Virus record (IMG/VR): IMGVR_UViG_3300037502_002379
Coordinates: 1 to 64,000 of that record
From: a virus
Length of the DNA: 64,000 nt
Strand: one strand, 5' to 3'
Below, piece by piece: positions 11,851 through 60,033 of this stretch; the first letter of the stretch is position 1; every line of letters begins with the position of its first letter. Position numbers and translations under genes: made by a program. Under the pieces are notes generated by a model. It saw only the letters and a program-made list of their open reading frames with translations. It made no database searches and had not been told where the DNA came from.

Positions 11851-11854
11851 GTTA

Positions 11855-12676: not shown

Positions 12677-12679
12677 AAT

Positions 12680-12688: not shown

Positions 12689-12728
12689 CTAATTATTTTT
12701 GATATACGCAATATTGGACTATATAATA

Positions 12729-12737: not shown

Positions 12738-12742
12738 AAGCA

Positions 12743-13705: not shown

Positions 13706-13738
13706 CTAATTAGCTTTATCGTTTAATAAACCGTGCCA

Positions 13739-14234: not shown

Positions 14235-14263
14235 TTTTCTGTTTTAAAATTGTTCAAAAAAAG

Positions 14264-14403: not shown

Positions 14404-14659
14404 AATATGCTTTCCTGTATCGCTCAATTATGGTATCGTTTTCTGCAAATGGTAATGCTATCGGGCATGGGTGGTCAAAGTCAAAAAAACTTTCCTCTCC
14501 ACATTTACTACACTTGTAATGAACAACATTCCTTTCTTCAACATACACATCTCTGATAAATGATAAGTTTTTTTGCCCTTCATCATCTGTATCGCCACAC
14601 ATTTCATTTTTACATTTGCAGTAAACGAATGTTCTTTGGTTCTTCTTCCTAATCCGCAT
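14396..14659 (-). CDS. Cassette-borne zinc-ribbon protein (87 aa)
   Basis: 87 residues from ATG 14659. A longer frame from 14746 exists, but its first 29 codons lie inside attC-like site C1; the cassette boundary at 14671 makes 14659 the natural start. Two cysteine groups (CKCKNEMC and CSKC) form a likely zinc ribbon; the C-terminus is ERYRKAYCA. The stop TAA lies inside the GCCTAAC box of site B. Function unknown; a nucleic-acid-binding or Cas-like ribbon role is only a guess. Confidence 0.65.
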   Translation of the reverse strand: MRIRKKNQRTFVYCKCKNEMCGDTDDEGQKNLSFIRDVYVEERNVVHYKCSKCGEESFFDFDHPCPIALPFAENDTIIERYRKAYCA

Positions 14660-14662
14660 ACT

Positions 14663-14796
14663 GCTCCTAACATGGTATTTATGCCATGCCGTATTTAGTG
14701 CTTTAATCAAGTTTGTCATTCTATTTAGGTTTAAATTGTTAACCAACTTTTGTCTTTCAAATCGGCACGGACATAAATACTCGTCCCGTTATAAGC
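14663..14796 (-). repeat. attC-like site C1
   Basis: The - strand boxes are GCTTATAAC and GTTAGGAGC. The stem GTATTTATG plus CC-x-TGCCG pairs with CGGCA-x-GG plus CATAAATAC, about 16 bp with a bulge. The loop has GTGCTTTAATCAA (14698-14710), like sites B and E. The site overlaps the 5' extension of the neighbouring reading frame. Confidence 0.7.
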
Positions 14797-14893
14797 AAGT
14801 GGCTGTGGTTAAAGTTCAACATTCCGAACTCCTCCTGTGGTTATCGGAGGCAGTCTTTGAACTTTACCACTCCACAGCCACCAGACTTATAAC
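14788..14893 (-). other. ORF-less hairpin cassette
   Basis: This unit between sites C1 and C2 has no meaningful ORF. It folds almost entirely on itself: GTTATAAG, GTGGCTGTGG and AAAGTTCAA pair with TTGAACTTT, CCACAGCCAC and CTTATAAC, with an inner CTCC/GGAG hairpin. About 35 paired bases in a 106-base element. It could be an RNA-level element, a terminator-like spacer or a relic. A 21-codon frame behind GGAGGAG is possible but unconvincing. Confidence 0.6.
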
Positions 14894-15012
14894 ATGGGCT
14901 AAAACGCAATAGGCACGGAGTACCTTTCAGCATTTGTGATAGCATTGAACCACTTGTCCCGTTTAGTTCTGTATGCACACCTACTGCGTTTAGCCCAATT
15001 CCGTTATGCTCC
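14884..15012 (-). repeat. attC-like site C2
   Basis: The - strand boxes are GGAGCATAAC (its TAA is the stop of the 15004 gene) and GTTATAAGTC. The stem CCTA-x-TGCGTTTAGCCCA pairs with TGGGCTAAAACGCA-x-TAGG, with one extra A on one arm, like the extrahelical bases of attC sites. The inverse core matches its own cassette start GTTATGCTC at 15676-15684, nine of nine. Confidence 0.75.
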
Positions 15013-15189
15013 ATTGCTACGTGTCTGCTTCGATTTGAAATTTGTGGAAGTTTTTTGTTCTTTTTTCTCCCCACGCACAAGAAAAATCAAATGGTCTTGA
15101 ATAAAGTTTTTAAGGTCTTTATCTGCGTCAATAGCCATCTTCTTTAAGTCTTTGACTATTTCTTCGGGTATGTCAATTAGCTTTTTCAT
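15004..15189 (-). CDS. Small RHH/antitoxin-like protein (61 aa)
   Basis: 61 residues. LIDIPEEIVKDLKKMAIDAD, then KDLKNFIQDHLI, resembles the short strand-helix-helix of ribbon-helix-helix-type phage proteins, followed by a basic tail. It could bind DNA or act as an antitoxin or regulator. The stop codon is part of the attC-like site C2 box. Third gene of a three-gene cassette. Confidence 0.6.
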   Translation of the reverse strand: MKKLIDIPEEIVKDLKKMAIDADKDLKNFIQDHLIFLVRGEKKEQKTSTNFKSKQTRSNGA

Positions 15190-15192
15190 AGA

Positions 15193-15297
15193 TTATTCAA
15201 TACCCATACCATCGGATTTTTTGTAAATTATAATTCCAAAAATTACCCAAACTACTATTACAAATATAAGGGCTTGTCCTATTGTTATATCGCACAT
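15193..15297 (-). CDS. Small single-helix membrane protein (34 aa)
   Basis: 34 codons from ATG 15297, overlapping the 3' end of the 15285 gene by 13 bases. A hydrophobic helix of about 20 residues (QALIFVIVVWVIFGIIIYKK) ends in a positive YKK cluster. Toxin-like, holin-like or membrane-regulatory roles are all possible. The overlap with its upstream gene and three-base spacing to the RHH-like gene support it. Confidence 0.55.
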   Translation of the reverse strand: MCDITIGQALIFVIVVWVIFGIIIYKKSDGMGIE

Positions 15298-15533
15298 AAT
15301 TTCCTTTTTGCTTCAAATAAATCAAACATTTGTTCACCAGTTAGCGATAATGTAATTCTACCACCATCAGTGTAAGTGCCTGTAATTTCATCTTCTTCCA
15401 TTGCATCATAAACTTTAGAAAGTATCATTGCAATAGTTTCTAATTCATCCGCAGTTAATTTTTGACTGCGTTTTTTTGGCTGAGCGTCTAATGTGCTGTT
15501 GCCAATATTTCTTTCGTTAATTCTATATCCCAT
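15285..15533 (-). CDS. Small unknown cassette protein (82 aa)
   Basis: The start ATG 15533 is chosen because the longer frame begins upstream, inside the promoter region. 82 residues: KKRSQKLTADELETIAMIL, then DEITGTYTDGGRITLSLTGEQMFDLFEAKRK. Helical ends around a beta-hairpin. No recognised family. It is the first gene of a cassette that carries its own promoter, which is unusual for integron cassettes. Confidence 0.6.
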   Translation of the reverse strand: MGYRINERNIGNSTLDAQPKKRSQKLTADELETIAMILSKVYDAMEEDEITGTYTDGGRITLSLTGEQMFDLFEAKRKLCAI

Positions 15534-15556
15534 TTTATGTGGTTTTAAATTATATG

Positions 15557-15587
15557 CAAATATATGCCGTATATATGACATACGCAA
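15557..15587 (-). promoter_or_regulatory. Cassette-internal promoter
   Basis: On the - strand a -33 TTG (15585-15587), a 20-base spacer and a -7 TATATTTG (15557-15564). It drives the 82-residue gene and the two following small genes independently of the rest of the block. Confidence 0.6.
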
Positions 15588-15675
15588 GAAAAAAGTAAAA
15601 TATTTTTTGCCTACCCATAAAAAAAGAACAAAAACCTTGCTCCTATTGAAGTTTACTGCTAAAAATCCGCAACGA

Positions 15676-15775
15676 GAGCATAACAGCGGTTTTGCGTCAG
15701 GCGGGGTGCGGTGCTAACTTTGAACATTCGTGCTAATAAACCCGCCCGAACGCAAAGCCGCAAAACGTTATGTGC
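15676..15775 (-). repeat. attC-like site D
   Basis: The - strand boxes are GCACATAAC and GTTATGCTC. The stem GCGGCTTTGCGT-x-GGCGGG pairs with CCCGCC-x-ACGCAAAACCGC, about 18 bp. The inverse core matches its own cassette's start GTTATGTG at 16794-16803 rather than the GTTATGCTC box of the same site. Length 100 bp. Confidence 0.8.
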
Positions 15776-15794
15776 AATTTTCTTTTTCATTTTT

Positions 15795-16742
15795 TTAGCC
15801 AACGCTCAAATGATTTAATGATTTTTTGAATGGGTTATACTCATAATCTTCCCAACTGCACGAATTGAAGATTATCCTATTGTTTACATATCTTGTGTAT
15901 GCTTTTTGATACCTATCATCTTTATTGTATGGCATTACAAAAGGCTTACATCCCAATTTCCTTAAAAATTCAACTCTGTAATAATCTTCTTCGGGAGAAG
16001 TATCAAACCCAATTAAAACAAAGAATTGCATATGTTCGCAAGGTATTCCCCATTTATTACAGCGTTCAATACCTCTAATTATTACCTTTTCATCTTTGAA
16101 TTGGTCCCACGCAAATGTCAAGTATCGTTTGTTGAATTTTGAATTGTAATACTTCACTTTTGCTAATGCTTCTGCTTGTCTATCTGAAATAATGCGAATA
16201 TTCAAACCTTGAACAAAGCAAACTTTCAAATCAAGTTCTGCAATTCTATTCAAATTAGCTTCCCAATTTGTGCCACCAAAAAAATCATTATCCAAAAGCA
16301 TCAAGTTTTTACCGCCTGATGGGTTAGTGATAAGTTCGTCAATGGTATTGTAATTGTATGGTCTGCCTTCTTTTTTTGGCACACAACAAAAATCACATTT
16401 AAAACGGCATCCTTTCATTGAAAATCCATAATGAAAAGGAGTATTTGGATAAATCTCCCAATCCATTGGAGCATTTTCAATTTCAGCAGGTAGTTTGTTA
16501 TAAAAATCAATTCCAGTTCCACCAATCACCATATTTTCGGGTATTTGTGGCATTTCGCTAAAATTAAAAATCTTACTTGCATAAATCTTATCGTATTGAC
16601 TTGCAAACAATATTCCTTCATACCATTCGACTGTATCGCCAATAGATTTATGGTAAGCCGATATTTTCATAAGTGCAATATTTGGAAATTGTACTCCTTG
16701 ATAATCCGTTCCATCAACTTGATATATTGCTATTCGTGCCAT
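15795..16742 (-). CDS. Radical SAM enzyme
   Basis: 315 residues. The N-terminal part (1-70) resembles the small Rossmann-like domain preceding many radical SAM cores (ALMKISAYHKSIGDTVEW). The cluster motif CxxxCxxC is at C112, C116 and C119 (GCRFKCDFCC), followed by glycine-rich GGKNLMLLDNDFF. The target is unknown; in phages such enzymes often modify nucleotides or peptides. It occupies a whole cassette by itself (GTTATGTG/CACATAAC). A near-identical inverted stretch, TTTTCTTTTTCATTTTTT, flanks it at both ends. Confidence 0.8.
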   Translation of the reverse strand: MARIAIYQVDGTDYQGVQFPNIALMKISAYHKSIGDTVEWYEGILFASQYDKIYASKIFNFSEMPQIPENMVIGGTGIDFYNKLPAEIENAPMDWEIYPNTPFHYGFSMKGCRFKCDFCCVPKKEGRPYNYNTIDELITNPSGGKNLMLLDNDFFGGTNWEANLNRIAELDLKVCFVQGLNIRIISDRQAEALAKVKYYNSKFNKRYLTFAWDQFKDEKVIIRGIERCNKWGIPCEHMQFFVLIGFDTSPEEDYYRVEFLRKLGCKPFVMPYNKDDRYQKAYTRYVNNRIIFNSCSWEDYEYNPFKKSLNHLSVG

Positions 16743-16793
16743 AAATGATTTAATGATTTAATTGCCCACGCACAAAAAATGAAAAAGAAAACA

Positions 16794-16930
16794 GACACAT
16801 AACAGCACATTGCCAAAAGTGGCGATGCGGTGCTAAAATCAAGTGTAGTGCTTCTAATTATCATTTGTGCTATATTCAAAATTTGTACTTCTAATTCGCC
16901 ACCATCGGCAATCTGCAACCCGTTATATCC
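16794..16930 (-). repeat. attC-like site E
   Basis: The - strand boxes are GGATATAAC (its TAA is the stop of the 16923 gene) and GTTATGTGT. The stem TTGCAGATTGCC-x-GTGGCGA pairs with TCGCCAC-x-GGCAATGTGC, about 17 bp with two bulges. The loop has GTGCTAAAATCAA (16830-16842), as in site B. The matching 5' boundary (GTTATATCC) is not seen upstream, so this is the first, probably anchored, unit. Confidence 0.7.
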
Positions 16931-37300: not shown

Positions 37301-39221
37301 TGCACCAATGCGAAGCAAGCCTTATGACGTGCCTTCCTGCGGGCAACTCCAACTCAAAAAAACTAAGCAGGTCTAAATCTTGGTCAGAAGGATTGGCTAT
37401 TTTATCTTGCAAAAAATCTCTATACCTATCCCTGCCTGCCGTAGATGAAAAGTCAATAATGCCGTTATCAAGCTGCGACAACTGCGCCCTGCTTATTTGT
37501 TTCGACACCGCAAATGTGTCTGTACCTGCTGCGTAAGCAACAAACCCTCCTTCTGGCAAGTATTGCTGCATGATAACAGCAACTTGTGTTGGGCTTAAAG
37601 TTTGTGTGCCTGGATTGTTTTCTATGTAAATATCACCACCTGCAACAATTACTCCACCAAACATAGGAATATTGCTTTGTGGGTCTTCGGGGTCATCCTC
37701 GTTTATCGTGGCGTTCTGTATCTGCCAAATCGGAGCGTTTGCTTTTGACGAAGGGTTTATTGTTTTTGACATTCCAAATGTAACGGCAGGACTATTCATT
37801 AAGGTTGGCTGATAAATTCTTACACCGCCCGTTACCTTATACAATTTCTTTTTTTCTAAATCATCAACATTAACTGTCAAGTTAGCATCAACACAATCGG
37901 GTGCGTCATACCCTTGCAATGCGCCACCCGTTACCAATCTGCCTTGTGTAAATGTTAAAGCATTAGCCTTGCGCGGAACGTTGTCAAACGGCACACTAAC
38001 CAAACTATCCGATACGGCTGCGGTTATTTGGTCGTTGTAAAAGTCATATTCGGCTGATACATTAACACCGTCTGTTGTATAAAAATCGCATGGTTCAAGA
38101 GTTACCACATCGCGCCACAATCCTTCGTTTCCTATACGATACAGCACCCGTACTGATTTTAACACTACCCAATTATTTGTGTTAATAACATCTGAATTGT
38201 TAAAATCAACTTTGATGTAATTAAACAACTCGTAGTTTTGGTCGTTGCAGCTAATGTTGTTCAGCCCGATATTGCTGATAGGCGACAACTTACTTTCTTC
38301 GTTATTGTCATAGATATACTGCAACCTAAATTGCCATACGTTGTTTTTAACAAAGTTAGATTGCCTTTCGCTGTCTTTACGCCATTCGTAGGTCGGCTGA
38401 AATGCAGGTATCCACTTAATTAAATCAAAGTATCTGTCAATCAAATTCAGCCCGTACCAATTATCTGCAACTACTTTATAGTTGCTGTTACCTGCAAAAT
38501 CAAAATAGACTTGATTAGTTCCCGTTTCGGTAACATTCAAATCGCATCCGCAACTTTCGGCTGTCAGATAGTTTTGTGAAGCATTGATGTCGTTGGCTAT
38601 TTGCTCAAATGCTTGTTCGCGTGTCAAGTTACCAACAAATGAGAACACCCCTGCAAACACTTGGTTGCCGTCCATATCGTATATGTTCCAACCCCATGAC
38701 TGAAACGGCTGCACATAGTTCTTAGGAAGATATACTTTCCATGATTTTTGCTTTTCGGTAATGTTGCCTTTAACCACGTTTATCATACGCGGCTTTACGC
38801 TGTCTGTCCAATACAGCAACTTAGCATCTACCAACTCTACACCCGTAATGTGTTCTTCATCGCTCCAGCCGAAATCGAATGTGATTATCTCTTGTATCGT
38901 TCCGTACGGATAGGCATTGCTTGTTTTACTTGGATAGTAGCGCAGTATCTTATGCTGCCCTTGACTGTTATAGACAAAGTATATGGTTGTGTTTTCGCCT
39001 CTGTCAAAATATGTTCCTATGCACTTGTTAATACCGCTTGGCAAAGTGTAGTTATCAATCAGCACATTGCCTTTGATATTGGTAACAACACCAAACTGCT
39101 TTTCATATCCTACGCTGTTGCTTATGTTAAGCGCATATCTGTAATCTTCGGGCGCTAATAGTCTGTTTTCGCTGTCGCTGTCTATGCCACCAATAGGACG
39201 ATTTTCGGTTTGTTTGTGCAT
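34386..39221 (-). CDS. Tail tube/muzzle-like protein (1611 aa)
   Basis: 1611 residues, beta-rich. The N-terminus ENRPIGGIDSDSENRLLAPE, then DYRYALNISNSVG and GVVTNIKGN, resembles the large muzzle/tail-stabilising proteins of crAss-like phages. A middle segment (GRVVDANGEPVFANLVYTNG) looks like a carboxypeptidase-regulatory-like beta domain. It should form the short tail below the portal rings. The -7 TAACTTTG at 39227-39234 is six bases before the ATG. Confidence 0.7.
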   Translation of the reverse strand: MHKQTENRPIGGIDSDSENRLLAPEDYRYALNISNSVGYEKQFGVVTNIKGNVLIDNYTLPSGINKCIGTYFDRGENTTIYFVYNSQGQHKILRYYPSKTSNAYPYGTIQEIITFDFGWSDEEHITGVELVDAKLLYWTDSVKPRMINVVKGNITEKQKSWKVYLPKNYVQPFQSWGWNIYDMDGNQVFAGVFSFVGNLTREQAFEQIANDINASQNYLTAESCGCDLNVTETGTNQVYFDFAGNSNYKVVADNWYGLNLIDRYFDLIKWIPAFQPTYEWRKDSERQSNFVKNNVWQFRLQYIYDNNEESKLSPISNIGLNNISCNDQNYELFNYIKVDFNNSDVINTNNWVVLKSVRVLYRIGNEGLWRDVVTLEPCDFYTTDGVNVSAEYDFYNDQITAAVSDSLVSVPFDNVPRKANALTFTQGRLVTGGALQGYDAPDCVDANLTVNVDDLEKKKLYKVTGGVRIYQPTLMNSPAVTFGMSKTINPSSKANAPIWQIQNATINEDDPEDPQSNIPMFGGVIVAGGDIYIENNPGTQTLSPTQVAVIMQQYLPEGGFVAYAAGTDTFAVSKQISRAQLSQLDNGIIDFSSTAGRDRYRDFLQDKIANPSDQDLDLLSFFELELPAGRHVIRLASHWCSFGDVLGKGGIYDLRSGRSYQQTSTNVYGVDDSPIGGAWKGGVGEIVVEVTNSDVYIGEFVVQDMVLWRQLPNNSGDGYFKVATGYLYDANGAVGVEDLQSAISVERSLVTFDSAPNIEYNRCVTDHNGYFFTSDYDTQSIRILADQVSATPNAPTALRQGGDVIYRDTQTSALWALKNGTLTPYSASSATIWNNTIFISDDFNDLIIPVTNTLARLTCSSVITGRVVDANGEPVFANLVYTNGRLATQDNLGNFRLIAWGSRWQNGYINSNNRIFDNLIFGGTDFCTIVYDNGAIENIQFTEFGTNATTTPPPFSPTAKFDVGTVIATDSGNIITKSEKRGSFKRFGLRYSDEAGRYTTVIPVADIYIPFITEPLDAIGQIGVFKDGAANISWTLQSAAPSFASTYQWMRTKDRIYGKQLSWICSDVQYLALTSYDVDGTTELPEILTSFEAGGYTSIKVSITNIVDYYRLNNSSLVTYEFDAGDRLRLVADKNGVRYEQLIDFEIVNYETTTQTVILRNNGVNVEIESGCMIEIYNSLLGAETEEETWYEIGECYDVVNGQHSVTSGTFEGGDSYFRYRKVPVFEAGSASKYYVDIFECKTISDFYESEDEDIGRTGLVTDSLNQIFRPTLLQHSNLYLPNTQINGLSNFEPANEKELSLSYGELFRLVPVENTLISIHSKKIVSSYLKRQLLIDAEQASSLVASAEEFFGTDNPYMQDWGTQHAESVFFWNGYIYGADQRMTLVWRRANDGLNAISDYKAKSLFKSELVGRTSIIGQFDEYKNEAVFTLIGGTPAKTIAFFEPKNRWTTFYSFTPEAYGQSGNNIVSFVSGRIWLHDRSATYNNFYGVQAVSELWYIVNTENIAPKVWQAMYLEILNTANTNNWTIYEISNDNGQLSRIDKSSFVKKEAYWHSSFKRDLNTVAVSNPIINGRAMRSNMIVVKMRNDGNDLETLKGIVTAYQVSERITF

Positions 39222-49877: not shown

Positions 49878-50048
49878 ATGAAATCTAACCTGCGCCAATG
49901 TATAGCAATAGATAGCGGTGTGCCGTATCTATTCCATACATGGATTAGAAAAACTAATTCAAACGGAGAAATACTTGTAGCCGTTGTAGAAGATACTTTC
50001 GGCTTGCTGCATGAAGTAATTTCGAGTAATCTAAAATTTATAGACTAG
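49878..50048 (+). CDS. Small + strand protein inside the virion module (56 aa)
   Basis: 56 residues from ATG 49878. IAIDSGVPYLFHTWIRKTNS, then VVEDTFGLLHEVISSNLKF. It has its own promoter and its stop codon overlaps the portal gene's stop tail-to-tail, leaving no terminator between. It is the only small + strand gene in an otherwise - strand module, which suggests an inserted accessory (moron) gene. Function unknown. Confidence 0.6.
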   Translation: MKSNLRQCIAIDSGVPYLFHTWIRKTNSNGEILVAVVEDTFGLLHEVISSNLKFID

Positions 50049-52333
50049 CCACCGTAAATAGCTTTAACCTGCGCTTCGGTAGCCTTTTCGTCTTTCTTCA
50101 ATTCAGACTTAACCGCACTTTGCTCAATCTTAGACGCGCCCGTTGCTTGCATCTTGCGTATATCTTCGTTGGTCTTGTGCGTGTATAATGCCATTTCGCG
50201 CTCCATTGACTTATTAGCCATTTCATCGGCAAGCATTAACTCTTGCTGTTTCGCTTGTGCTTGCGCTTCTGCTTGTGCAACACCAATACGCTCCGCATCG
50301 GCTGCCTTTTGTCGTCTGCGCTTATTCACAACCATCGTTACATATTGCTGCGTAAACTTGATACTTTGGCTTGTTTCGATAATGTTCTTCAAGAAAAAGA
50401 AATCATCGGGGTCAAGCGGTGAACTTGGTTCTTTGGTAACATCAATCAGATAATTCAACAAAAACTCTTTCTCTTGCTGCAATGGCTGCCTTACTACCTT
50501 TATGCCCAATTGCGTCAAACTAAAGTCATTCTCAAACTCTATCCACTTGCCTATCTTTTGGTTGTACAGTTTTTGCAGCCCGTACATCGTAGCCCGTTGC
50601 AACTTACCTGCTATATCAATAACGGTCTTTTCATGCAGCCATATCATTCCGTCAATAATATCGCTAAACCCGTTTAATGCGCTTTCTGTGCTTAGTTTTG
50701 CTACCGTTGCGGCTGTGCTTGCCATAGGTGTTGTGGCATCCATAAACTCATTAACACCAATAACAGCATTTACTAATTGAATGTTGTTCTGTATATCTTT
50801 CATATACTGTTCAGCCTCAATACCCCATCCGCTTTCTCTCGATTCGATTGGCTTGCCACCGCCTTCGGGTATCATGCTATCTTCGCTACGATATAAAAAC
50901 AAGCCAGTCTGTACCGCCAAATTCAATATCTGTTTAACGGTCATTTCCTTGTTATCCACAACCAATTTTTCGATAGCGGACAAATCAACCGTAATGCCAC
51001 TAGGAATAGCCCTTGCTTTTCTGTCTTGTAGCTTGTACCATGAAATGCTAATTGCATCAATAAAAGGAATAGCGCGTTCTGTACGACCTTGCTCCGATAC
51101 CTTGTAGATAGACAATGGCAACATACATTCGCGCTTGTTTAATTGGTCGCGGCTGAATGAATTTACTTTGCCGTAGTTATACACATAGTCAGTACCGATT
51201 ATCCACGAACATTCGTGTACGGTCTGTTTGTACATATCGCCCGATTCTACAATTATCTTGCGTCCGTCCTTTGTTATCTTTTCTTCTCTGCCTTTAGCCT
51301 TTTCGTACCCGCTTTTGTAATACGTTTCCGCACCGTTTTTGGTTACTTTTTTGTATCGTACAACATCGGTGCTAAACCAATACATCCTAACACGATACAC
51401 GTTATATCCTTTCCATGAAGAATAGTTATTGCCGTATAGTGAGTTGTATTGCTGAAACTGCGGATTGCCTAATGTTTGGTCGTAACGCTTGGCTATCTCT
51501 TTGTATTGGTCTGGTGTAAATTGGTCGCCTGCTTCTCTGTACACATCATACACACTCATAGGTTCACATACCCCTGCTATCCATACCTTTTCGCCCGTCT
51601 TGCCCGTATAATTCGGCAATATGACATTAGTCATGTTATATGACTTAACTTCTATTGCTTGGCTGTAATTGTTGATTCGCTTTTCAATACAAGCCATACC
51701 GTTGTCAAAGAAATTCTCCAACATTATACGTCTTACCACATCCCACTCGTTTTCGGATAATACCGCTTCCGTTCCTACTTCGGCTTGTATTTCTTCTTTC
51801 AGCTTTAAATAAAGATTGGCTAATAGTTCGTATTCTGGCAATTCATCGGGAACCCATGATAGGTCTTGTTGCGCTTCCAATGGCATATTGGTAACGCCCA
51901 TCATATCCATAAACTTCTTAGCTTCTGACAGCATTTCTTTTTCTGCCCACATATCCCATTTAAGTTGCTCCTTTTTAGCAACAGCATCGGGGTTTATGGC
52001 AGCGCATTGTACGCTGAAATCAACTTTGCTTAGGTACCCTATGACTATATCACGAACCTTTGGCAGAATAGATACTTGCCGCCAATTTATGTCCATGTAG
52101 TTTTCCTCCGCGTTTTGGCATAGTGCTTTTATATACCTTTCGATAGGCTGTTTGCCTTGCGCGTACAGTTCATTCAATATCCATTGATTGTACTTGCCGT
52201 TGTAATAGGCGTTGTTGTACATAGCGTAGTACCCCGCTTGCACATATTGTCTATGCCACTTTTCATCCTTCTCGTCAGGATTGATAAAATCATCGGGAAA
52301 TAGTACGAGATTGGGTACTCCGAAAATAAACAT
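50045..52333 (-). CDS. Portal protein
   Basis: 762 residues, the size of crAss-like portals. The helical N-terminus (ALCQNAEENYMDINWRQ, then LPKVRDIVIGYLSKVDF) and later segments WISWYKLQDRKARAIPSG and FKDITQ-like helices fit. The C-terminal part is rich in Gln/Ala/Glu (AEAQAQAKQQELMLADEMA), the barrel-like helical end. It would form the dodecameric DNA gate in the capsid vertex. The -7 TACATTTG is at 52349-52356. Confidence 0.75.
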   Translation of the reverse strand: MFIFGVPNLVLFPDDFINPDEKDEKWHRQYVQAGYYAMYNNAYYNGKYNQWILNELYAQGKQPIERYIKALCQNAEENYMDINWRQVSILPKVRDIVIGYLSKVDFSVQCAAINPDAVAKKEQLKWDMWAEKEMLSEAKKFMDMMGVTNMPLEAQQDLSWVPDELPEYELLANLYLKLKEEIQAEVGTEAVLSENEWDVVRRIMLENFFDNGMACIEKRINNYSQAIEVKSYNMTNVILPNYTGKTGEKVWIAGVCEPMSVYDVYREAGDQFTPDQYKEIAKRYDQTLGNPQFQQYNSLYGNNYSSWKGYNVYRVRMYWFSTDVVRYKKVTKNGAETYYKSGYEKAKGREEKITKDGRKIIVESGDMYKQTVHECSWIIGTDYVYNYGKVNSFSRDQLNKRECMLPLSIYKVSEQGRTERAIPFIDAISISWYKLQDRKARAIPSGITVDLSAIEKLVVDNKEMTVKQILNLAVQTGLFLYRSEDSMIPEGGGKPIESRESGWGIEAEQYMKDIQNNIQLVNAVIGVNEFMDATTPMASTAATVAKLSTESALNGFSDIIDGMIWLHEKTVIDIAGKLQRATMYGLQKLYNQKIGKWIEFENDFSLTQLGIKVVRQPLQQEKEFLLNYLIDVTKEPSSPLDPDDFFFLKNIIETSQSIKFTQQYVTMVVNKRRRQKAADAERIGVAQAEAQAQAKQQELMLADEMANKSMEREMALYTHKTNEDIRKMQATGASKIEQSAVKSELKKDEKATEAQVKAIYGG

Positions 52334-52376: not shown

Positions 52377-53456
52377 TTAATCTGCTAAAAGTGAAATGTG
52401 TTCTTGCCAATATTGTCGAGGTCTTATATTTATCAAATATAAGTTTGTAGCCTTTTTACAACATGCAACATAGTCTTTTGTTAAAGTGGTATGCTTATGC
52501 AGTCTATCTACATACTCCCCTCTTACACTTAGCCTATGCTTGTACACTCTATTTGTAGCCTTAACGGGTAGTTGACCATGAATAACCACATTGAACTCAT
52601 ACGGCTCATGCTCGAATACAATCTCGAAATCTTGGTCGGTTTGGTGGCGTAACTGATTTACGTCAAATCCTTCGGGTACGATAAAAGTAATAAACGGGCG
52701 TGTGCATACGTCAAAATCATGTCGCCATATTGTACGCGGCTCTGTCCAACTTGAACCCGATAGGTGCGTAACGTAATCGGCTACATTAAACCCGTCAACC
52801 TTATAACCTAAATCTTGCGCTGCCATCATAGACAACACACAAGGCGAACCGTCATTGCAGAATATCGCAGGGTGGTAATGTCCGTTTACCAACTTAACTT
52901 GTACGTTCTGCAACTGCAAGTATATGTCGCGGTTGTAAAACGAGAATGAAGGGTGCGCGTATGGCAATACATCGGTTTCATCCAATGGTGCGCCATTTGC
53001 ATAGTTTTTTCTTGAAGTCAGCATCAGCGTTCCATAGCCGAACATATCGTCTGTTAATTGTGATATGGCTTGTTCTAAAAACCCACCGCGCTCAATGATA
53101 ACATCGCTATCCATTGCCAACACCCACTTTGTCGTAATGTGTTCGGTTATGGCTTTGTGCATGGTTATACCATGACTTGTTTTGCCGCCACTTGGGTTAG
53201 GTTTTGTCCACACACACAAGTTGCTGTGCTTGGTCTGCATAAACGCCAAATACTCCGAACTATCGTCTTGGCTATCACCGTCCACAACCAATACGGGAAT
53301 GTCGGGGTAAAATCGAAACAGACTTTCAAGGCACAATTGAATAAGGTCTTTTGTTTTACGTTGGCATATTAGCACCGTTACGTTCTTTTTCGCCCATTCT
53401 TCTTTGTGCTTTTGCGTGTTAATTCCGTATGGTCTGTCTAATTGTGTTTCAATCAT
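52377..53456 (-). CDS. Glycosyltransferase family 2-like
   Basis: 359 residues with a GT-A fold: NVTVLICQRKTKDLIQLCLE, VLVVDGDSQDDSSEYL and the DxD motif VLAMDSDVIIE (about 113-117). The C-terminal part holds a long acceptor-binding region (CNDGSPCVLSMMAAQDL). It may decorate virion proteins or the host surface; crAss-like phages do not normally have it between portal and terminase. A half attC-like site lies 44 bases upstream of the ATG. Confidence 0.7.
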   Translation of the reverse strand: MIETQLDRPYGINTQKHKEEWAKKNVTVLICQRKTKDLIQLCLESLFRFYPDIPVLVVDGDSQDDSSEYLAFMQTKHSNLCVWTKPNPSGGKTSHGITMHKAITEHITTKWVLAMDSDVIIERGGFLEQAISQLTDDMFGYGTLMLTSRKNYANGAPLDETDVLPYAHPSFSFYNRDIYLQLQNVQVKLVNGHYHPAIFCNDGSPCVLSMMAAQDLGYKVDGFNVADYVTHLSGSSWTEPRTIWRHDFDVCTRPFITFIVPEGFDVNQLRHQTDQDFEIVFEHEPYEFNVVIHGQLPVKATNRVYKHRLSVRGEYVDRLHKHTTLTKDYVACCKKATNLYLINIRPRQYWQEHISLLAD

Positions 53457-53499
53457 GGTTTATGTTGTTGATTATCAATATACATTCGCAAAGTATCAT

Positions 53500-53508
53500 G
53501 TTATACGC
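53500..53508 (-). repeat. attC half-site of the adenine-type methyltransferase cassette
   Basis: - strand GCGTATAAC is the exact complement of GTTATACGC, the box of site F at 54289-54297 that opens the methyltransferase cassette. It is followed by a stretch that also occurs after the half-site at 56081. The rest of the attC stem is absent. Confidence 0.55.
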
Positions 53509-53576
53509 AAGGGCTACATTCCGTCTCCGTTTGACAATTTCGTGTTCAAAAAAAAACAAAAAATTTCCCCACGCTT

Positions 53577-54233
53577 CTAAAATAATGTAGTTTGCATTTG
53601 TTCATTCTCTAATCGTTTTAATCCTGCCAAATAATATTCCTCTACTAATTCACACCCAACAAGGCTAAACTTCTCCCTATGGCAAGCAATCGCAATCGAA
53701 GCACTTCCCAAGTGAGTATCTAAAATCAAATCGCCTTCCTTTGCATAGTTTTGTAATATCCATTGGTATAGTTGTATTGGCTTTTCTGTCGGGTGTATGC
53801 GTTCTTGCTTGTTGCCCATATTTTGCTGTATAAATCCGTGCCAAGTCCATTTAAAAGTCCTTACAGCAGTATCAAAAGAAGTCCAAGCAAGTTCAGCATC
53901 AGCAAAATATCCGCCTACTTTGTTTTTATCCCAAACAAGCCAACAACTACTATTTTTATTTATCCGTTCAATAAAGTGGTTTGCCCCCCAAATGATTTGA
54001 TTTTTAGATACTCTCATTAGTTCGTCAAAATAAGCCTTGTCAGGTGCTTTTTTATCCCAATCGTATTTAGTGTATTGCTTTGCCTTTCCTGCTCCGTCAA
54101 TACCTATTTTACCGCCATCCATATCAATTCCGTATGGTGGGTCAACTATTGCTAAATCAAAATGTTTGTCAGGGTATTTAGCCATAAGTTCCATATTGTC
54201 GCAATTAAATAATTCTATTTTCCCTTCGCTCAT
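53577..54233 (-). CDS. DNA methyltransferase (N6-adenine or N4-cytosine type)
   Basis: 218 residues. Motif IV DPPYG is at 31-35 (LAIVDPPYGIDM); the FxGxG-type cofactor region is represented by LILDTHLGSASIAIACHREK near residue 175. The order (DPPY first, cofactor site last) is the beta class. It should methylate phage DNA against restriction. The cassette is bounded by GTTATACGC and GCGTATAAC. The sequence motif cannot tell adenine from cytosine. Confidence 0.85.
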   Translation of the reverse strand: MSEGKIELFNCDNMELMAKYPDKHFDLAIVDPPYGIDMDGGKIGIDGAGKAKQYTKYDWDKKAPDKAYFDELMRVSKNQIIWGANHFIERINKNSSCWLVWDKNKVGGYFADAELAWTSFDTAVRTFKWTWHGFIQQNMGNKQERIHPTEKPIQLYQWILQNYAKEGDLILDTHLGSASIAIACHREKFSLVGCELVEEYYLAGLKRLENEQMQTTLF

Positions 54234-54288
54234 TTTTTGTTTTTTTTGTTTGTGCTACTAATTAAGTTCCTACTAAATAACCGCCCCA

Positions 54289-54367
54289 GCGTATAACACG
54301 GGTTTGGCGCAATTTTCCCAACGCACAAGCCGACACACAACTGCGCCAAGCCCGAAAACGTTATCTC
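54289..54367 (-). repeat. attC-like site F
   Basis: The - strand boxes are GAGATAAC (its TAA is the stop of the epimerase gene) and GTTATACGC. The stem CGGGCTTGGCGCA pairs with TGCGCCAAACCCG, 12 of 13. Compact, about 79 bp. The opening box matches the far end of the downstream methyltransferase cassette (53500-53508) nine of nine. Confidence 0.75.
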
Positions 54368-55272
54368 ATTTCAGTTAAATACCAATCAATCGTTTTTTGC
54401 AGCCCTTGTTCAAATGTATGCTTTGACTTCCATCCTAATTCGGTCTGAATTTTAATGCTGTCAATCGAGCGCCTGTCAATGTTGTCAATGCTGCGTTTTG
54501 CAATATGTTCTTGCGATACAAATTTTTCTAAAAGAGTTTGTAATAAAGCCACTATATGCACAACGCTTAATTCTTGCATCGCTGATACATTGTATATTCC
54601 AATTGCTTTCTTCTCTATTGCTAATACTACGGCATCACACACATCTTCTACATAGGTGAAATCGCGTGTTTGTCTGCCACTTCCAATTATTTCAACATCT
54701 TCACCAACTACTGCTTTGTGTACCATCTTCCCAATCACTCCGCAATACGGGTTTGTGTGGCGCTGATTGATACCGTACACATTTGACAAGCGCAATATAC
54801 AAGTGTTTTTTTCGTTCATAAAAATATGTTCTGCCAACCACTTTGTTTCTGCATAGATGTTTGTCAGTTTGATTGGCGCTGTTTCGGGTGTGGGTAGAAT
54901 ATCAGCATTGCCGTAAACGCTTGTTGTGCTGATATAAATAACGCGCTTACCTGCTTTTATCAACTTACCAAACACATCAACGGTTGAATGATAGTTATTG
55001 TCAATCGTTTCTTTTCGGTGAGTTTGAGCGTAGATAATATTGCTTGTGGCGCAATGAATAATTACATCGCAAGACATCATTTCTTCCAACTGTGTGTTAA
55101 AGTTGGCTATCTTCCAATCAACACTAACAAGCAAGTCCAATGACTTTAAATTCTCAATAGTGCCGAATGACAAATTATCGCAGCCGTACACACACCAACC
55201 TTCGTCAATCATTCGCTTGGCAATGTTTGACCCTACGAAGCCCATAAGACCTGTTATATAGCATTTTTTCAT
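54361..55272 (-). CDS. NAD-dependent sugar epimerase/dehydratase
   Basis: 303 residues, extended short-chain dehydrogenase. The Rossmann start KKCYITGLMGFVGSNIAK has a GxxGxxG-like loop; STTSVYGNADI and IYAETKWLAE contain the Ser/Tyr-Lys catalytic set (YAETK). It would convert a nucleotide sugar used by the adjacent glycosyltransferases. The stop codon is in the box of site F; the start overlaps the upstream glycosyltransferase gene by four bases. Confidence 0.8.
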   Translation of the reverse strand: MKKCYITGLMGFVGSNIAKRMIDEGWCVYGCDNLSFGTIENLKSLDLLVSVDWKIANFNTQLEEMMSCDVIIHCATSNIIYAQTHRKETIDNNYHSTVDVFGKLIKAGKRVIYISTTSVYGNADILPTPETAPIKLTNIYAETKWLAEHIFMNEKNTCILRLSNVYGINQRHTNPYCGVIGKMVHKAVVGEDVEIIGSGRQTRDFTYVEDVCDAVVLAIEKKAIGIYNVSAMQELSVVHIVALLQTLLEKFVSQEHIAKRSIDNIDRRSIDSIKIQTELGWKSKHTFEQGLQKTIDWYLTEMR

Positions 55273-56039
55273 GGCTTAACCCCTTTTACTTTAATCAAAT
55301 AATCAGCAAAACTTACTTGCTCTTTTGGCTTTTCAAACACCACATAGTTTTTCCATTCGCGGTACAAAGTGCTATTTTCGGTGTGTTCCACGTAGAAGTC
55401 TTTGAGTATGCACCATCCCCAACGCCCTGCCATTCTCTGATACGAAGCGTGTTCCAACCATCCGTATATGCTGTTACCTCCATTCGGTACGGGTACACCG
55501 CCTATCTCATTCAAAAAGTCCATGTTAAAGCCGCCTTGTGCCCAATTGCTGCAACCATTAACCGAATACACATCATGTCCGTATTTAACCTTGTGGTGCA
55601 GCAAACCACCGTTCTGTGCTAACTTCTCGTGCGCGTCCGTATTCAATGACACCCATGCCATTTTAGGCTGCGCTTCAAACACATCTGCAATAGCTTTAAC
55701 CCATCCTTTTGTTTTTGTGCGTTCATCGGGGTCGGCACAAATAACACAACCACTTTCAATTTGGCTGTGCATTATCACTTGATTCCAATTCTGACTAACG
55801 CCAATATTGTCAATCTTAACGTACTCCGAACCGAACTTTTTAGCAAGCCCTTGTAGTAATACGCTGTTTGTTTCTTGCGCTTCTGATACGCTTTTAGGCA
55901 ATCCGTCAAAAAATATAGGGAAGCCAACATCAGCGATAATGTGCTTATCAAACTGACCGCCACATTGCTCGTACAAGTCTTGCGTGGCTTTTTCTACTTC
56001 CGTAAATAGGTTAAAAGCTAATGTGTGAACTAATATCAT
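55269..56039 (-). CDS. Glycosyltransferase-like protein (256 aa)
   Basis: 256 residues with a GT-A-like core: ILVHTLAFNLFTEVEKAT, KIDNIGVSQNWNQVI and a DxD-like CADPDERTKTKG. The C-terminal GWCILKDFYVEHTENST contains a His that could bind metal. Its substrate is unknown. It shares a transcript with the epimerase, suggesting a dedicated sugar transfer. Confidence 0.65.
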   Translation of the reverse strand: MILVHTLAFNLFTEVEKATQDLYEQCGGQFDKHIIADVGFPIFFDGLPKSVSEAQETNSVLLQGLAKKFGSEYVKIDNIGVSQNWNQVIMHSQIESGCVICADPDERTKTKGWVKAIADVFEAQPKMAWVSLNTDAHEKLAQNGGLLHHKVKYGHDVYSVNGCSNWAQGGFNMDFLNEIGGVPVPNGGNSIYGWLEHASYQRMAGRWGWCILKDFYVEHTENSTLYREWKNYVVFEKPKEQVSFADYLIKVKGVKP

Positions 56040-56080
56040 TTATATGTAGTTGGTTTTAATTTGTATTTGCGAAGTGTCGT

Positions 56081-56090
56081 GTTATGTGGC
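56081..56090 (-). repeat. attC half-site after the 37-residue ORF
   Basis: - strand GCCACATAAC, one base after the ORF stop at 56092, complements the 5' box GTTATGTGCC at 56221-56230 in nine of ten positions. The following stretch (ACGACACTTCGC) resembles the one after the half-site at 53500. No full stem follows. Confidence 0.5.
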
Positions 56091-56091
56091 A

Positions 56092-56205
56092 TTAAGTAAA
56101 CCATTGAATATAATACCCATCAAAACCTTTTACTATTTTACCACATTTAATCCAACCTTCAAAAGGTTCATACTTCCAAGCATACCCGTTTTCTATCTGT
56201 ATCAT
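56092..56205 (-). CDS. Small cassette ORF (37 aa)
   Basis: 37 codons from ATG 56205. The peptide (MIQIENGYAWKYEPFEGW; then IKCGKIVKGFDGYYIQWFT) has alternating aromatic residues like an OB or SH3-like fragment. It fills a unit bounded by matched GTTATGTGCC/GCCACATAAC boxes, as in an integron cassette. Function unknown. Confidence 0.45.
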   Translation of the reverse strand: MIQIENGYAWKYEPFEGWIKCGKIVKGFDGYYIQWFT

Positions 56206-56220
56206 TTTTTAAATTTTAAC

Positions 56221-56275
56221 GGCACATAACAATGGTGTTGCATAATAACCCCATCAAGTGTCGTGGTTAATTTTA
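56221..56275 (-). repeat. Minimal attC-like site
   Basis: The - strand boxes AATTAAC and GTTATGTGCC enclose a short hairpin, ATGGGGTT/AACACCAT with a 7-base loop. At about 50 bp it is shorter than the others and its outer box is weak. It follows the 56314 glycosyltransferase gene after about 39 bases. Confidence 0.4.
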
Positions 56276-56313
56276 AGTTTATACTAAGAACTACTACACA
56301 AAGCCATAAGCCA

Positions 56314-57822
56314 TTAAACAAAATACGGTGTTTTTTCATAGTCAATAAATATGTTGCTCATTATGTTCATGTTGTGAACTTCTTTGCATAGCCACATCTC
56401 CGCTTCATGTCGGCTTTTCTGATTAAGCGTTTTAACAGACGGCAATCGGTTTATATGTTCAGCATACGCCCACCAAAAGTTACCGCTATAATGACGCGGA
56501 AAGCCGCTGCTTTCATCAATGTACTTCACTCCACAGCTATCATACCCGTCCGCAATTGCCTCTAAACACTTTTGCCACAATGTTAAATTAAAGTGGTTCA
56601 TGTATGCCCTCCAATGGCTTGCGCTGCTTAGTGTTACACCTTTAGTGTGTATGTAGCATATCGCATCTTCTCTGAAATGCTTGGCGTGGTTTTCAAGCAA
56701 TTCCAATGTGATAAATTCGTAACGCTCAATGTTTTCTGAATACGCGCCAATGTTAATCTTGTGGTACTTATTCAACATCTTATTCAAGCGCATCTTTTCG
56801 GCTTTGTTGCCAACACACCCGATTGTTATTTTATCCGCGTTGTCATACAAGCCGCTCATGTGAATGATTGCCAACTGTTCTTCAACCACGCGCTCCCAAT
56901 TACCCATTAGCGCGACATGGTAAAACACCGCTATGTTATGGTTGCCTTTTCGCTTCTTAGGTGTGGCAAGCGCGTTTTTAGGTCGGTAGAATGTTTTGTC
57001 ATTCATCCCTAACTTCTTAGCAAAGTATTCAGACCATTCGTTGTAGTATCTCACTACCCGTTGGCTTTCTACTTTACTCCCTGCAATAGATATTCCATAG
57101 TAATTATCAATGGTGTGGTGCAGCCCTTCAAAGTTTATAAATGGCAGATAGATTGGTATGTATGGCTTTGTTCTGTATGCAGATTTAGGAAGATAATGAG
57201 TTATTGTGTTTTTTGAACTCTGATTTGTTATTTTTAATATATCCCAATCATCATTACTTCTAAATTGAAGAATAGACATGGCTATATCAATGCACACTTC
57301 ATCGGGTATTTCCCCTCTAAAATAATTTACCTTAAACTTTTCATTCTTTATGTCAATGTAAATTTCTCTTGCCTTCTCAAATATAACATCCGACATTTTA
57401 CTGCCATCGCAATATATCCAACTTGTATTTTGGCGCACATATTCATTAAATCCGTACAACTTCTTTACCTCGTCATGGTTGCACCAATCGGGGTATTTTA
57501 TGCTTTTATGCAGCACAATTGCTTCAAACGGGTACAGCTTGGTATGGTCAATAGGTTTGGTTACAATCGTATCTGCATCTAAAAACAATATCGGTTTACC
57601 ATTTCCATACTCGTCAATGTGCAATTTGTTAATCATTGCCGTTTCCAAATCGGTTTCGCCAACATATATCGGGCTTACTATCTCCGTAAACAACTCTGCT
57701 TTTCTGCCTTGTACATCTTGGTCTGTAACCAACATTATATCGTGCTTGCCGTAAACGCTTGCAGCTAATGTGCAAGCCATGTTGAGGTAGCTTTCGCCAA
57801 CGGCTATTGTTAATATCTTCAT
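56314..57822 (-). CDS. Two-domain glycosyltransferase (502 aa)
   Basis: 502 residues. The N-terminal part is GT8/GT-A like (ILTIAVGESYLNMACTLAAS; DxD in LFLDADTIVTKP, about 78-84). The C-terminal half has NIAVFYHVALMGNWERVVEE, CYIHTKGVTLSSASHWRAYM and GFPRHYSGNFWWAYAEHI, a pattern seen in capsule/glycan-processing proteins. Both domains may act on one sugar chain. A -7 TACTTTTG lies at 57830-57837, eight bases before the ATG. Confidence 0.7.
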   Translation of the reverse strand: MKILTIAVGESYLNMACTLAASVYGKHDIMLVTDQDVQGRKAELFTEIVSPIYVGETDLETAMINKLHIDEYGNGKPILFLDADTIVTKPIDHTKLYPFEAIVLHKSIKYPDWCNHDEVKKLYGFNEYVRQNTSWIYCDGSKMSDVIFEKAREIYIDIKNEKFKVNYFRGEIPDEVCIDIAMSILQFRSNDDWDILKITNQSSKNTITHYLPKSAYRTKPYIPIYLPFINFEGLHHTIDNYYGISIAGSKVESQRVVRYYNEWSEYFAKKLGMNDKTFYRPKNALATPKKRKGNHNIAVFYHVALMGNWERVVEEQLAIIHMSGLYDNADKITIGCVGNKAEKMRLNKMLNKYHKINIGAYSENIERYEFITLELLENHAKHFREDAICYIHTKGVTLSSASHWRAYMNHFNLTLWQKCLEAIADGYDSCGVKYIDESSGFPRHYSGNFWWAYAEHINRLPSVKTLNQKSRHEAEMWLCKEVHNMNIMSNIFIDYEKTPYFV

Positions 57823-57870: not shown

Positions 57871-60033
57871 TTAATATATCTGCGGCTTGTACGTTGGAAA
57901 ATCGGGCTGCTTGTCTTTTTGTACGGGTCGAACTTGAACAATAGGCTTTTTCGTAATCATATTGGCATTTATCCTTGCCAATGCAGCACCAACAAAGGCA
58001 TCATACGGCTGCAAATCTTCGTACTCCACCTCTTTCAACTGATTAAGCAATCTTGTAAACTTGCAATGGTCAACACAATAGTTCACATACCAATCCATTT
58101 CGTTGAACATCTTACCTTTGAGCGCTTCGTTTCCTGCGTTGTAAACACCGGGCGTTGATTTTTCTTCCACATACACACGCTTGCTATCTCTCTTTGCTTG
58201 CAGTTCGTATTTTAAAAATCCTTCATAACCCCTTTCCAAAAAGTATTTCAGATATGCTTCGGTAGCGTTTTTCTCTATGTACGCCTTGCTATTGGTGTAC
58301 ACACATTGCAGTATAATGTCCTCAAAAAATTCTTCTTGGCTTAGTGGTCGGTTAATGTACTCTATGGTAAAATCGTCCGTCAGCCAATCTTCGTGTTCTT
58401 TGCCTTTGTCAACTTCTTCGTTGTACTCTGTCCATGTGTATATCGCACCCATTGAGCCTTTCGCGTCTATGGTCTTGGCAAATCGGTAAGGGTCAACTCC
58501 TGTATAGTTGCCATTGTGTTCGGGGTGTCTTTGCTGTCCTTTCCACCGCCACTTGTTTGACTTGTCTTGCGACTGCAAATAGCCTACCAACCACCTTCCG
58601 TTATCGTCCTCTCTGAATATGACTGTGGTATCAGGTTTGTTATCCAACCACTCGAAATTGCCGCGCCTTAGTATGTACGGACTTCCGAACACAAACTTTT
58701 CCAACTGCGCTTCAATCTTTGACAAATTGAAATGACAGCTTTTAAATGAAGATATAAACCCTTCGCGTATGGTTACGGGGTGCTTACGGGTGTATGCTAT
58801 CCTTTGCCAACTATCTTTTATCTCTTGCTTTTCAAGTTCAATCTTTTCCTTGCCGCCAATATGTGATAGTCTTTTTGCAATGTCGTCTGTATAGCCTTTT
58901 TTCTTGTAGAAACCATACAGATACTTTTGCTGTTGTTCTGTTGGGGTGTTTACAATACTATCTCCATAAGCATCGGTTATCAGCGCTTCATAAGCAGGTA
59001 TAAAGTACGGCACTAATCCGCTTACTGTTTCGCCTAACTCATTTAGATTTTTAGTGTTGCTGTTATCCCATATCAACTTGTACTCCATACCGCCATTTCT
59101 CTCTAACTCCTCAATGGTTGTAATTAGGTGTGCTTTGCCATTACTTGTTCGCAAGGCATATTTTAATCTATCCCACAATTTAACAACAGATACATTAGTA
59201 TATTTACCCGGTTCATCAACCGTAACCCTGTGCAATGTTTCACTATCATAAGAAGCTGATGTTAATGCTTTTATGTCAATCTTACTTTCAAGAGGTTCTT
59301 CATCATAATTAAAATCAGCATCAGCACCTTTTTTACTAGGATAAGTAAAGTTGATTTCTTCCTTTGGTGCGGTGTTACCATCAAATATCGGCTGAAAAAA
59401 CCATACTAACTTTCTTCTAGGAAGGGTAATATATTTTCTAAAAAACTCCCTAGCCGATATTTCGTCTTTTGATAAAATCCCACAATGGCAACTTGCGGTT
59501 CGAGTAACATATTCCAATTCCTCACCACCTGCCATAGATGATTTTCCTACCTGCCTTGTGGTGAACATCAGACTGCCCCATACAGAAGGATTGTTGCACA
59601 CCACAAAGTTCCTAAACCAAAAGTATTTTAAATTATACACCCTAAAATCGGGTAACTGCCCATGCGGTAGGTAGTAGAAATTCAAATACCACCAAAAATT
59701 GCCCGGTATGTAGTAAGGCTTTCCGTTGATAAACTGCCATTCACCCTCCGCCCGTTTACGCCAACACATCCGTACAAACTGCGCTATTTCGGGGTTCTTT
59801 TGGCATATCGCCCTCGCTTCATCCCTTGTTACCAAATTCAGCTTTCTTACGTTTGGCGGTATGTATAATCGCTTAAAAAACTGTTGTTCTTTCGGCAGCT
59901 TAAAATTGGTGATGTCCTCCATTTTCGGAGGTTCGGGCAAGTCAATATAATACGGATTGATGTCTTGAATACCATCAAGTAAAACAATAAACCTTTCGGG
60001 TTCTTCTAAGTGCGCGTATTTAGGTAGTAGCAT
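57871..60033 (-). CDS. Terminase large subunit
   Basis: 720 residues. ATPase with Walker A TTRQVGKS (158-165) and Walker B VTVDEPGKY (D273, E274); the nuclease part begins at GVDPYRFAKT (512-521) with a catalytic Asp. Size and N-terminus match crAss-like terminases. It translocates and cuts phage DNA at the portal. Its ATG overlaps the upstream RusA-like gene by 14 bases. No small terminase is recognised nearby; the 61113 gene is one candidate. Confidence 0.85.
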   Translation of the reverse strand: MLLPKYAHLEEPERFIVLLDGIQDINPYYIDLPEPPKMEDITNFKLPKEQQFFKRLYIPPNVRKLNLVTRDEARAICQKNPEIAQFVRMCWRKRAEGEWQFINGKPYYIPGNFWWYLNFYYLPHGQLPDFRVYNLKYFWFRNFVVCNNPSVWGSLMFTTRQVGKSSMAGGEELEYVTRTASCHCGILSKDEISAREFFRKYITLPRRKLVWFFQPIFDGNTAPKEEINFTYPSKKGADADFNYDEEPLESKIDIKALTSASYDSETLHRVTVDEPGKYTNVSVVKLWDRLKYALRTSNGKAHLITTIEELERNGGMEYKLIWDNSNTKNLNELGETVSGLVPYFIPAYEALITDAYGDSIVNTPTEQQQKYLYGFYKKKGYTDDIAKRLSHIGGKEKIELEKQEIKDSWQRIAYTRKHPVTIREGFISSFKSCHFNLSKIEAQLEKFVFGSPYILRRGNFEWLDNKPDTTVIFREDDNGRWLVGYLQSQDKSNKWRWKGQQRHPEHNGNYTGVDPYRFAKTIDAKGSMGAIYTWTEYNEEVDKGKEHEDWLTDDFTIEYINRPLSQEEFFEDIILQCVYTNSKAYIEKNATEAYLKYFLERGYEGFLKYELQAKRDSKRVYVEEKSTPGVYNAGNEALKGKMFNEMDWYVNYCVDHCKFTRLLNQLKEVEYEDLQPYDAFVGAALARINANMITKKPIVQVRPVQKDKQPDFPTYKPQIY

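Follow-up and report, generated by a model that had tools for sequence, protein, structure and literature searches.

Bacteria swap resistance genes by means of mobile gene cassettes. Here we analyse a stretch of 64,000 nucleotides (nt), positions 1 to 64,000 of the IMG/VR virus record IMGVR_UViG_3300037502_002379 (the window), and compare its two cassette loci with the chromosomal integrons (IntI, attI, attC) and with the cassettes described in phages. The window shares with the chromosomal integrons a recombinase gene, an attI at the end of an array, and complementary outer boxes around a G^TTA crossover. However, its recombinase scores well below the IntI cut-off, its cassette genes point toward attI, and its cargo is mostly anti-restriction. 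We think it likely that the window phage has a cassette system resembling an integron, in which locus 1 is a complete platform and locus 2 has two cassettes at other TAAC sites, one certain and the other probable.

Clusters of attC sites (CALINs) have been described in phage genomes and are used by IntI1, while complete integrons were found only in temperate phages and in no lytic phage (Qi 2023, PMC9892861). The parts of that paper drawn on here give the direction of the phage arrays as typical or divergent, with no report of a systematic reversal, mention five methyltransferases in phage cassettes, and suggest that the arrays arrived by off-target homologous or illegitimate recombination. 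The system in the window is similar in its attC-type hairpins, in arrays belonging to lytic phages, and in having several DNA methyltransferase genes. In cryoconite phages, the known genes found most often in swapped modules are those for methyltransferases, and five modules are annotated as integron gene cassettes (Bellas 2020, PMC7468147). These methyltransferase islands are alike in being swapped in modules but unlike in that the cassettes are an annotation, with no attC or integrase mechanism in the parts of the paper used here. Phage attC arrays are thus already known (Qi 2023, PMC9892861), and what we have not found reported in the open-licence literature, which leaves subscription papers and preprints outside, is a reversed cassette pool, a conserved phage attI of this kind, or an XerA-like (non-IntI) recombinase adjoining them.

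A methyltransferase cassette and its attC site in locus 2

All cassettes and sites of the window described below, and the genes in and beside them, lie on the minus strand. The hairpin site of locus 2 (54363-54294) was identified with a structure finder and by folding. It has the boxes GAGATAAC and GTTATACGC, which are of the GATAAC and GTTATAC forms, spacers of 5 nt and 1 nt, and long arms (CGGGCTTGGCGCAG/TTGCGCCAAACCCG) with near-perfect pairing and a fold of -18 kcal/mol. Its finder score is 13.3, and shuffled windows contained 0.1 sites per window at scores of at least 12. The site opens a mobile unit (unit B, 53500-54359) that contains a gene for an N6/N4 DNA methyltransferase of 218 residues (53577-54233; PF01555, E 6e-17). 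In the direction of the genes, the order is epimerase, hairpin site, methyltransferase, the box GCGTATAAC ending at 53500, a leader, and the start of a glycosyltransferase gene at 53456.

The outer boxes of unit B, GTTATACGC and GCGTATAAC, match at nine of nine positions. Furthermore, the unit is 95% identical to a segment of an unrelated viral contig with different flanks (L104:990-1808), which has the right arm, the box and the gene in common with the window. The identity opens in the right hairpin arm and extends to precisely the C of GCGTATAAC at 53500, beyond which the contigs differ. The stop codon of the gene for the NAD-dependent epimerase/dehydratase (54361-55272; PF01370, E 1e-41) is a TAA at 54363-54361 inside the left box of the site, and unit B is placed after this codon, leaving it unchanged. 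There is no matching start box upstream of the epimerase gene, which is the host gene of the insertion and not a cassette gene. The original prediction of an attC-like site that joins the epimerase gene, with its stop codon in the box, to a methyltransferase gene bounded by matching boxes is borne out. As judged from sequence comparison, the site is a true hairpin of the attC type, and the unit with the methyltransferase gene is a mobile cassette.

The same prediction bounded an open reading frame (ORF) of 37 residues by boxes. This ORF (56092-56205; MIQIENGYAWKYEPFEGWIKCGKIVKGFDGYYIQWFT) lies in a candidate mobile unit (unit A, 56081-56265), the boundary boxes of which, GTTATGTG and CACATAAC, agree at 8 nt but then mismatch, and the hairpin before the ORF (56269-56228) is weak (-5.4 kcal/mol). 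The box agreement thus holds up, while the later mismatch and the poor hairpin leave the unit as a candidate only. It is probably the second cassette of locus 2, plausible but weaker than unit B. The repeat ACGACACTT is located in the hairpin spacer of unit A and again past the end of the unit.

Boundaries of the mobile unit

To compare boundaries across arrays, we used loci drawn by one attC arm pattern, 61 of which were viral and 95 of which came from genomes. Of 154 pairs of adjacent sites in the viral and bacterial loci, 129 have facing boxes that agree at four or more of the five variable positions, but agreement between the boxes within a site is rare. Such agreement between but not within sites is the signature of circularising units, and the matching boxes of unit B conform to it.

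A second pair of shared cassettes was found in locus 1. The identity (90%) between its first unit and the viral contig segment L096:812-1979, which also has different flanks, extends from the TAAC before the hairpin through the hairpin and the gene, and ends just past the next TAAC, before the following hairpin. More generally, the gene-side ends of the shared stretches in the viral contigs fell at a TAAC 38 times and after a hairpin not once, and 36 of the 84 starts were at a TAAC. Since the shared stretches never end past a hairpin, a gene moves together with the hairpin that precedes it. A unit that consists of a hairpin followed by a gene is expected to leave a stemless TAAC at the junction with the target, that is, on the attI side. 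As in integrons, the cassettes are discrete mobile units with complementary ends. The occurrence of one unit from each locus in a different contig with different flanks (L104 for unit B, L096 for the first unit of locus 1) also agrees with the prediction that the two loci, which are separated by about 37-41 kb, were filled by separate insertions.

The array, leader and recombinase in locus 1

Locus 1 is an array of six cassettes (16925-12729) with all sites on the minus strand. Its hairpin sites have the same form as the site in locus 2, and together the seven attC sites in the window have scores of 13-18, with paired boxes and an imperfect hairpin as in integrons. An additional finder match on the plus strand (38185-38358) was taken as a chance match. 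The outer boxes agree at eight or nine bases in five of the six units, as they do in unit B. The first unit (15767-16921) consists of the hairpin 16925-16800 and an ORF of 315 residues, the product of which has no profile match and which we take from its sequence alone to be radical-SAM-like. The second unit (15003-15766; hairpin 15770-15681; boxes nine of nine) contains small ORFs, and the third (14788-15002; hairpin 15006-14890; boxes eight of eight) contains no ORF but has an internal inverted repeat, GTGGCTGTGG/CCACAGCCAC, and may have a regulatory role or encode an RNA. The fourth unit (14395-14787; hairpin 14791-14668) was identified with the finder; it contains an ORF of 71 residues (14458-14673), and its outer boxes agree at six plus bases. 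The fifth (13826-14394; hairpin 14398-14273; boxes nine of nine) contains an ORF of 131 residues, and the sixth (12729-13825; hairpin 13829-13744) a C5 DNA methyltransferase gene (12743-13705) between the boxes GTTACCTG and CAGGTAAC, which match at eight of eight positions. We also considered a stemless end at 14791, which would divide the locus into two arrays, but a wider search identified a hairpin at this position, and locus 1 is thus one array.

The array ends at CAGGTAAC, and the recombinase gene starts 52 nt past this end. The intervening leader (12677-12728) contains an attI-like site that ranks sixth among 601 TAAC sites with a profile of post-junction sequences from which the window was left out. 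The recombinases in the viral contigs L145 and L243, which show 61% and 57% identity to the one in the window, are preceded by an equivalent leader with the cassette junction at the equivalent position. Hence, as in integrons, an attI is located beside the putative integrase gene, here in a junction-bearing leader that is conserved in three phages.

The recombinase (11855-12676) is an XerA-like tyrosine recombinase of 273 residues (PF00589, E 2e-41) and the putative cassette integrase. The residues R129, K154, H218, R221, H244 and Y253 are invariant. The best match is the XerA model, at 188 bits, which is below the cut-off of 220. The match to the integron integrase model TIGR02249 reaches 142 bits against a cut-off of 265 and is split into two stretches, as is the match to 2A3V. 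By this measure, the recombinase does not belong to the IntI family, which has an extra helix domain. The Xer-like family of the recombinase would also suit modules of the Xer/pdif type, in which short sites are used by the host XerC/XerD. However, the sites studied here are hairpins of 60-125 nt with variable, matching outer boxes, unlike the fixed 28-bp dif sites, and an explanation along these lines is hardly credible.

In all ten loci with a strong recombinase match nearby, the recombinase gene is located beyond the stemless end of the array. Five of these are viral (the window, L108, L145, L351 and L243, where the sites were read by eye because the finder does not call them) and five are bacterial (L152, L196, L228, L232 and L239). 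A further recombinase match in L285 is likewise on the stemless side, at a distance of 2 kb from the box. CALINs are defined by two or more attC sites in the absence of a nearby IntI. In locus 1, there are six sites, no IntI according to the model, and a recombinase at the attI position; locus 2 has one certain site. With its array, conserved leader and recombinase gene, locus 1 looks like a complete integron in its sequence organisation.

Gene direction relative to attC

The polarity of the attC sites was assigned solely by the spacer rule, which was derived from the window and applied unchanged, and the direction of the longest ORF was then determined. For a strict count, we considered only cassettes that are flanked by two sites whose boxes agree and more than half of which is covered by an ORF of 80 residues or longer. 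In two separately drawn viral samples (62 and 69 cassettes), the directions were 131:0, as compared to 3:22 in the bacterial genomes. Counted by contig, the numbers were 70:0 and 2:14. The Fisher P-values are 7e-24 for cassettes and 3e-14 for contigs, and are best taken as a ceiling on confidence, as near-identical contigs were retained. The genes thus do not precede their attC as in integrons; the order is reversed in all cassettes in the window and in all 131 strict viral cassettes.

A looser count by contig gave 50 viral contigs in one direction and one mixed, while 33 bacterial contigs showed the other direction, six were viral-like and one was mixed. In the second viral sample, the looser count gave 57 in one direction, two opposite and two mixed. 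Among the six viral-like bacterial contigs, L183 and L221 look like wrong choices of ORF, L184 and L189 contain transposition genes as in Mu-like phages, and L235 contains mostly methyltransferases; the sixth is L205. The count of array ends is less clean for the bacterial than for the viral loci, since the sequence that follows some of the bacterial stemless ends resembles a missed hairpin.

The bacterial arrays L228, L232, L239, L152 and L196 are similar to the array in the window in attC family, in the XerA-like recombinase family at the array end and in the side of the crossover. However, their genes face away from the recombinase and their cargo is diverse. Because viral and bacterial arrays do not differ in the side of the stemless end and, if there is one, of the recombinase, bacterial genes point away from the recombinase and phage genes toward it. 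Matches to the attC pattern were found in only three of 395 Bacteroidota genomes, so this attC family is not general in the Bacteroidota. The viral direction is also seen in two isolated phages: Polaribacter phage P12002L, taken from Qi 2023, has matching boxes around a methyltransferase gene with the same direction relative to the sites as in the window, and the three sites of Flavobacterium phage hemulen6-1, the boxes of which agree, are accompanied by genes that run as in the viral arrays.

In 76 of 87 viral arrays, the upstream genes are codirectional with the array. Read-through from phage transcription, and not a promoter at attI, probably accounts for the expression of the viral cassettes. 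The same codirectionality could suggest that cassettes enter either way and that the single direction reflects only selection for codirectional transcription. What was measured, however, is the direction of a gene relative to its own attC, which insertion cannot alter. Selection might sort cassettes from two pools, yet the counts of 131:0 and 3:22 mean that two pools exist, and we regard an explanation by selection alone as improbable.

Target sites in other phages and at locus 2

As an independent query, we used the 18-base core GCAATATTGCGTGATATA of a different phage attI, which includes neither the TAAC nor a hairpin. The search identified 37 viral loci, six of which were already in the earlier samples. 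In 33 of the 37, a TAAC is located exactly 16 nt upstream of the core, with variable sequence before the TAAC, and in 25 a matching GTTA or cassette box is present further upstream, such that the site is occupied. In 25 of 72 viral arrays, the TAA of the first box terminates an ORF of 50 or more residues, as compared to 335 of 6500 other TAACs. In one group with a viral attI (L095, L101, L115, L137 and L363-L393), the arrays end beside a conserved gene of 344 residues on the opposite strand or beside small early genes. Viral stemless ends without a recombinase (L092, L094, L121, L323, L336 and L356; L098, L122, L313, L339 and L350) often have a gene for a small protein 34-54 nt away. These proteins belong to two unrelated families of about 60-68 and 74 residues, and most finish in -CPF or similar, which recalls the tip of the SSB tail.

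The original prediction described the stemless boxes in locus 2 as half-sites followed by similar sequence that may serve as secondary insertion targets or promoters. The similarity is real: the sequences after the two boxes agree at 13 of 19 positions, with every difference a transition, and a pattern built from both occurs within three mismatches at only these two places in the window. Both are located about 43 nt before the start codon of a glycosyltransferase gene. The flank after unit B (53457-53499) is the leader of the glycosyltransferase gene at 52377-53456; it has no homology to L104 past 53500 and matches the viral target profile weakly.

The similarity and the spacing to the glycosyltransferase starts would fit damaged attC half-sites beside ordinary promoters. 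However, the ends of the shared cassettes at a stemless TAAC and never past a hairpin contradict the half-site part, and we rejected degenerate attC sites on this count. Moreover, the attI is fixed and the boxes beside it are variable in the 33 loci above, and, at up to three mismatches, the window has no further copy of the post-junction sequence. This earlier explanation thus appears very unlikely, and the stretches after the boxes are instead flanking target DNA. Such flanks are conserved attI sites in other phages. The locus-2 flanks themselves fit the profile only weakly, and we do not claim them as proven attI sites. A role of the post-junction sequence as promoter for the downstream glycosyltransferase genes is possible.

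Cargo of the cassettes

Among 116 viral cassette proteins, matches were found to N6_N4 methyltransferases (27), C5 methyltransferases (6), Mom (5), D12 (5), Dam (2), MT-A70 (1) and a Tad2-like protein (1). Tad2 is a Thoeris anti-defence protein. Approximately 40% of the viral cargo is thus related to DNA modification or anti-defence, a rough figure because one protein may match several families. The 55 bacterial cassette proteins included one N6_N4 methyltransferase. The main viral cargo is DNA modification against host restriction. A separate viral contig, L086, contains at least five regions similar to the methyltransferase in the window, several of them within one cassette array, and resembles a stockpile of DNA methyltransferases.

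Surroundings of locus 2

As predicted, locus 2 is placed between the genes for the terminase (TerL, 57871-60033) and the portal protein (50045-52333), both identified with PHROGs. These two genes are adjacent in three related phages (MW202828, phi18:3 and elemoA), which suggests that a block of about 5.5 kb was inserted between them in the window phage. The block (52377-57822) contains glycosyltransferase genes and the epimerase gene. From this gene order, the cassettes were added inside a glycosyltransferase/epimerase block that is itself an insertion in the window phage. A tblastn search with the two locus-2 glycosyltransferases against the phage collection gave no matches, and scans of the viral contigs with single proteins (the 371-residue gene product, TerL and the recombinase) yielded no close relative of the window phage. 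An empty version of locus 2 was not found, as no close relative surfaced for comparison. Seven other viral records with cassettes, which may be fragments, contained no match to the TerL of the window, and an Rfam search of the window gave no matches. The closest TerL relative (L005, 37% identity) contains about 4.5 kb (9990-14490) without an ORF of at least 60 residues in the standard bacterial code and without Ns, possibly a recoding or non-coding stretch.

Proposed movement of the cassettes and their source

Comparison of the contigs, as far as sequence can establish it, shows where the units begin and end, that cassettes recur in other contigs between different flanks, and that other phages have fixed, conserved target sites. 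In the mechanism that we propose, a cassette consists of a hairpin and then a gene, with the gene pointing toward attI, opposite to bacterial cassettes. The recombinase would cut at the TAAC box, which reads G^TTA on the opposite strand, and the cassettes would be carried on circles. Capture of a circle would occur at attI and more rarely at secondary sites, of which locus 2 is an example.

Several observations weigh against an integron-like system of the phage. The recombination itself is deduced from the sequences, and all viral and bacterial loci come from patterns of a single attC family. Among the 84 starts of viral shared stretches, 19 were at a GTTA box and 14 inside a hairpin, and the pair formed by the window and L104 starts inside the hairpin, the left arm and loop of which have diverged. 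The flanks in locus 2 rank only 50 and 106 of the 601 TAAC sites in the viral target profile. No recombinase of the window type is located near the arrays with the GCAATATTGCG attI, at which another integrase, perhaps host-encoded, may act. Most viral arrays have no recombinase within the contig sequence, although the contigs are fragments and the absence means little.

The lack of a recombinase in the contigs that carry most viral arrays, together with the ability of IntI1 to use phage attC sites (Qi 2023, PMC9892861), would be consistent with passenger cassettes, that is, arrays that are copied from host integrons or moved only by these in trans, in which case the recombinase in the window would be an unrelated enzyme for lysogeny or dimer resolution. 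However, the recombinases, where present, adjoin the stemless end, and the junction-bearing leader is conserved in three phages. Gene direction and cargo also differ sharply from those of bacterial cassettes, so that the arrays do not simply sample the bacterial pool. We consider passenger cassettes unlikely and prefer a system of the phage's own. Beyond the window, it seems reasonably probable that phages of the Bacteroidota have their own branch of integrons, with an XerA-like recombinase without the IntI helix, a dedicated attI, and a pool of reversed genes, mostly anti-restriction, that relies on phage transcription and passes between unrelated phages.

Such a system offers a concrete mechanism for the ready swapping of methyltransferases among otherwise near-identical phages, a puzzle raised by the cryoconite phages (PMC7468147). 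It makes direct predictions about the cassette boundaries, the attI sites, the recombinase, and the isolated phages hemulen6-1 and P12002L. It would also provide a means to collect candidate anti-defence genes by position, since any uncharacterised gene in such a cassette qualifies, and if the interpretation is correct, many of the small uncharacterised cassette genes are candidates for anti-defence proteins. For the biology of integrons, it would mean that an entire pool of elements can invert the rule of a gene followed by its attC without a change in the side of the crossover.

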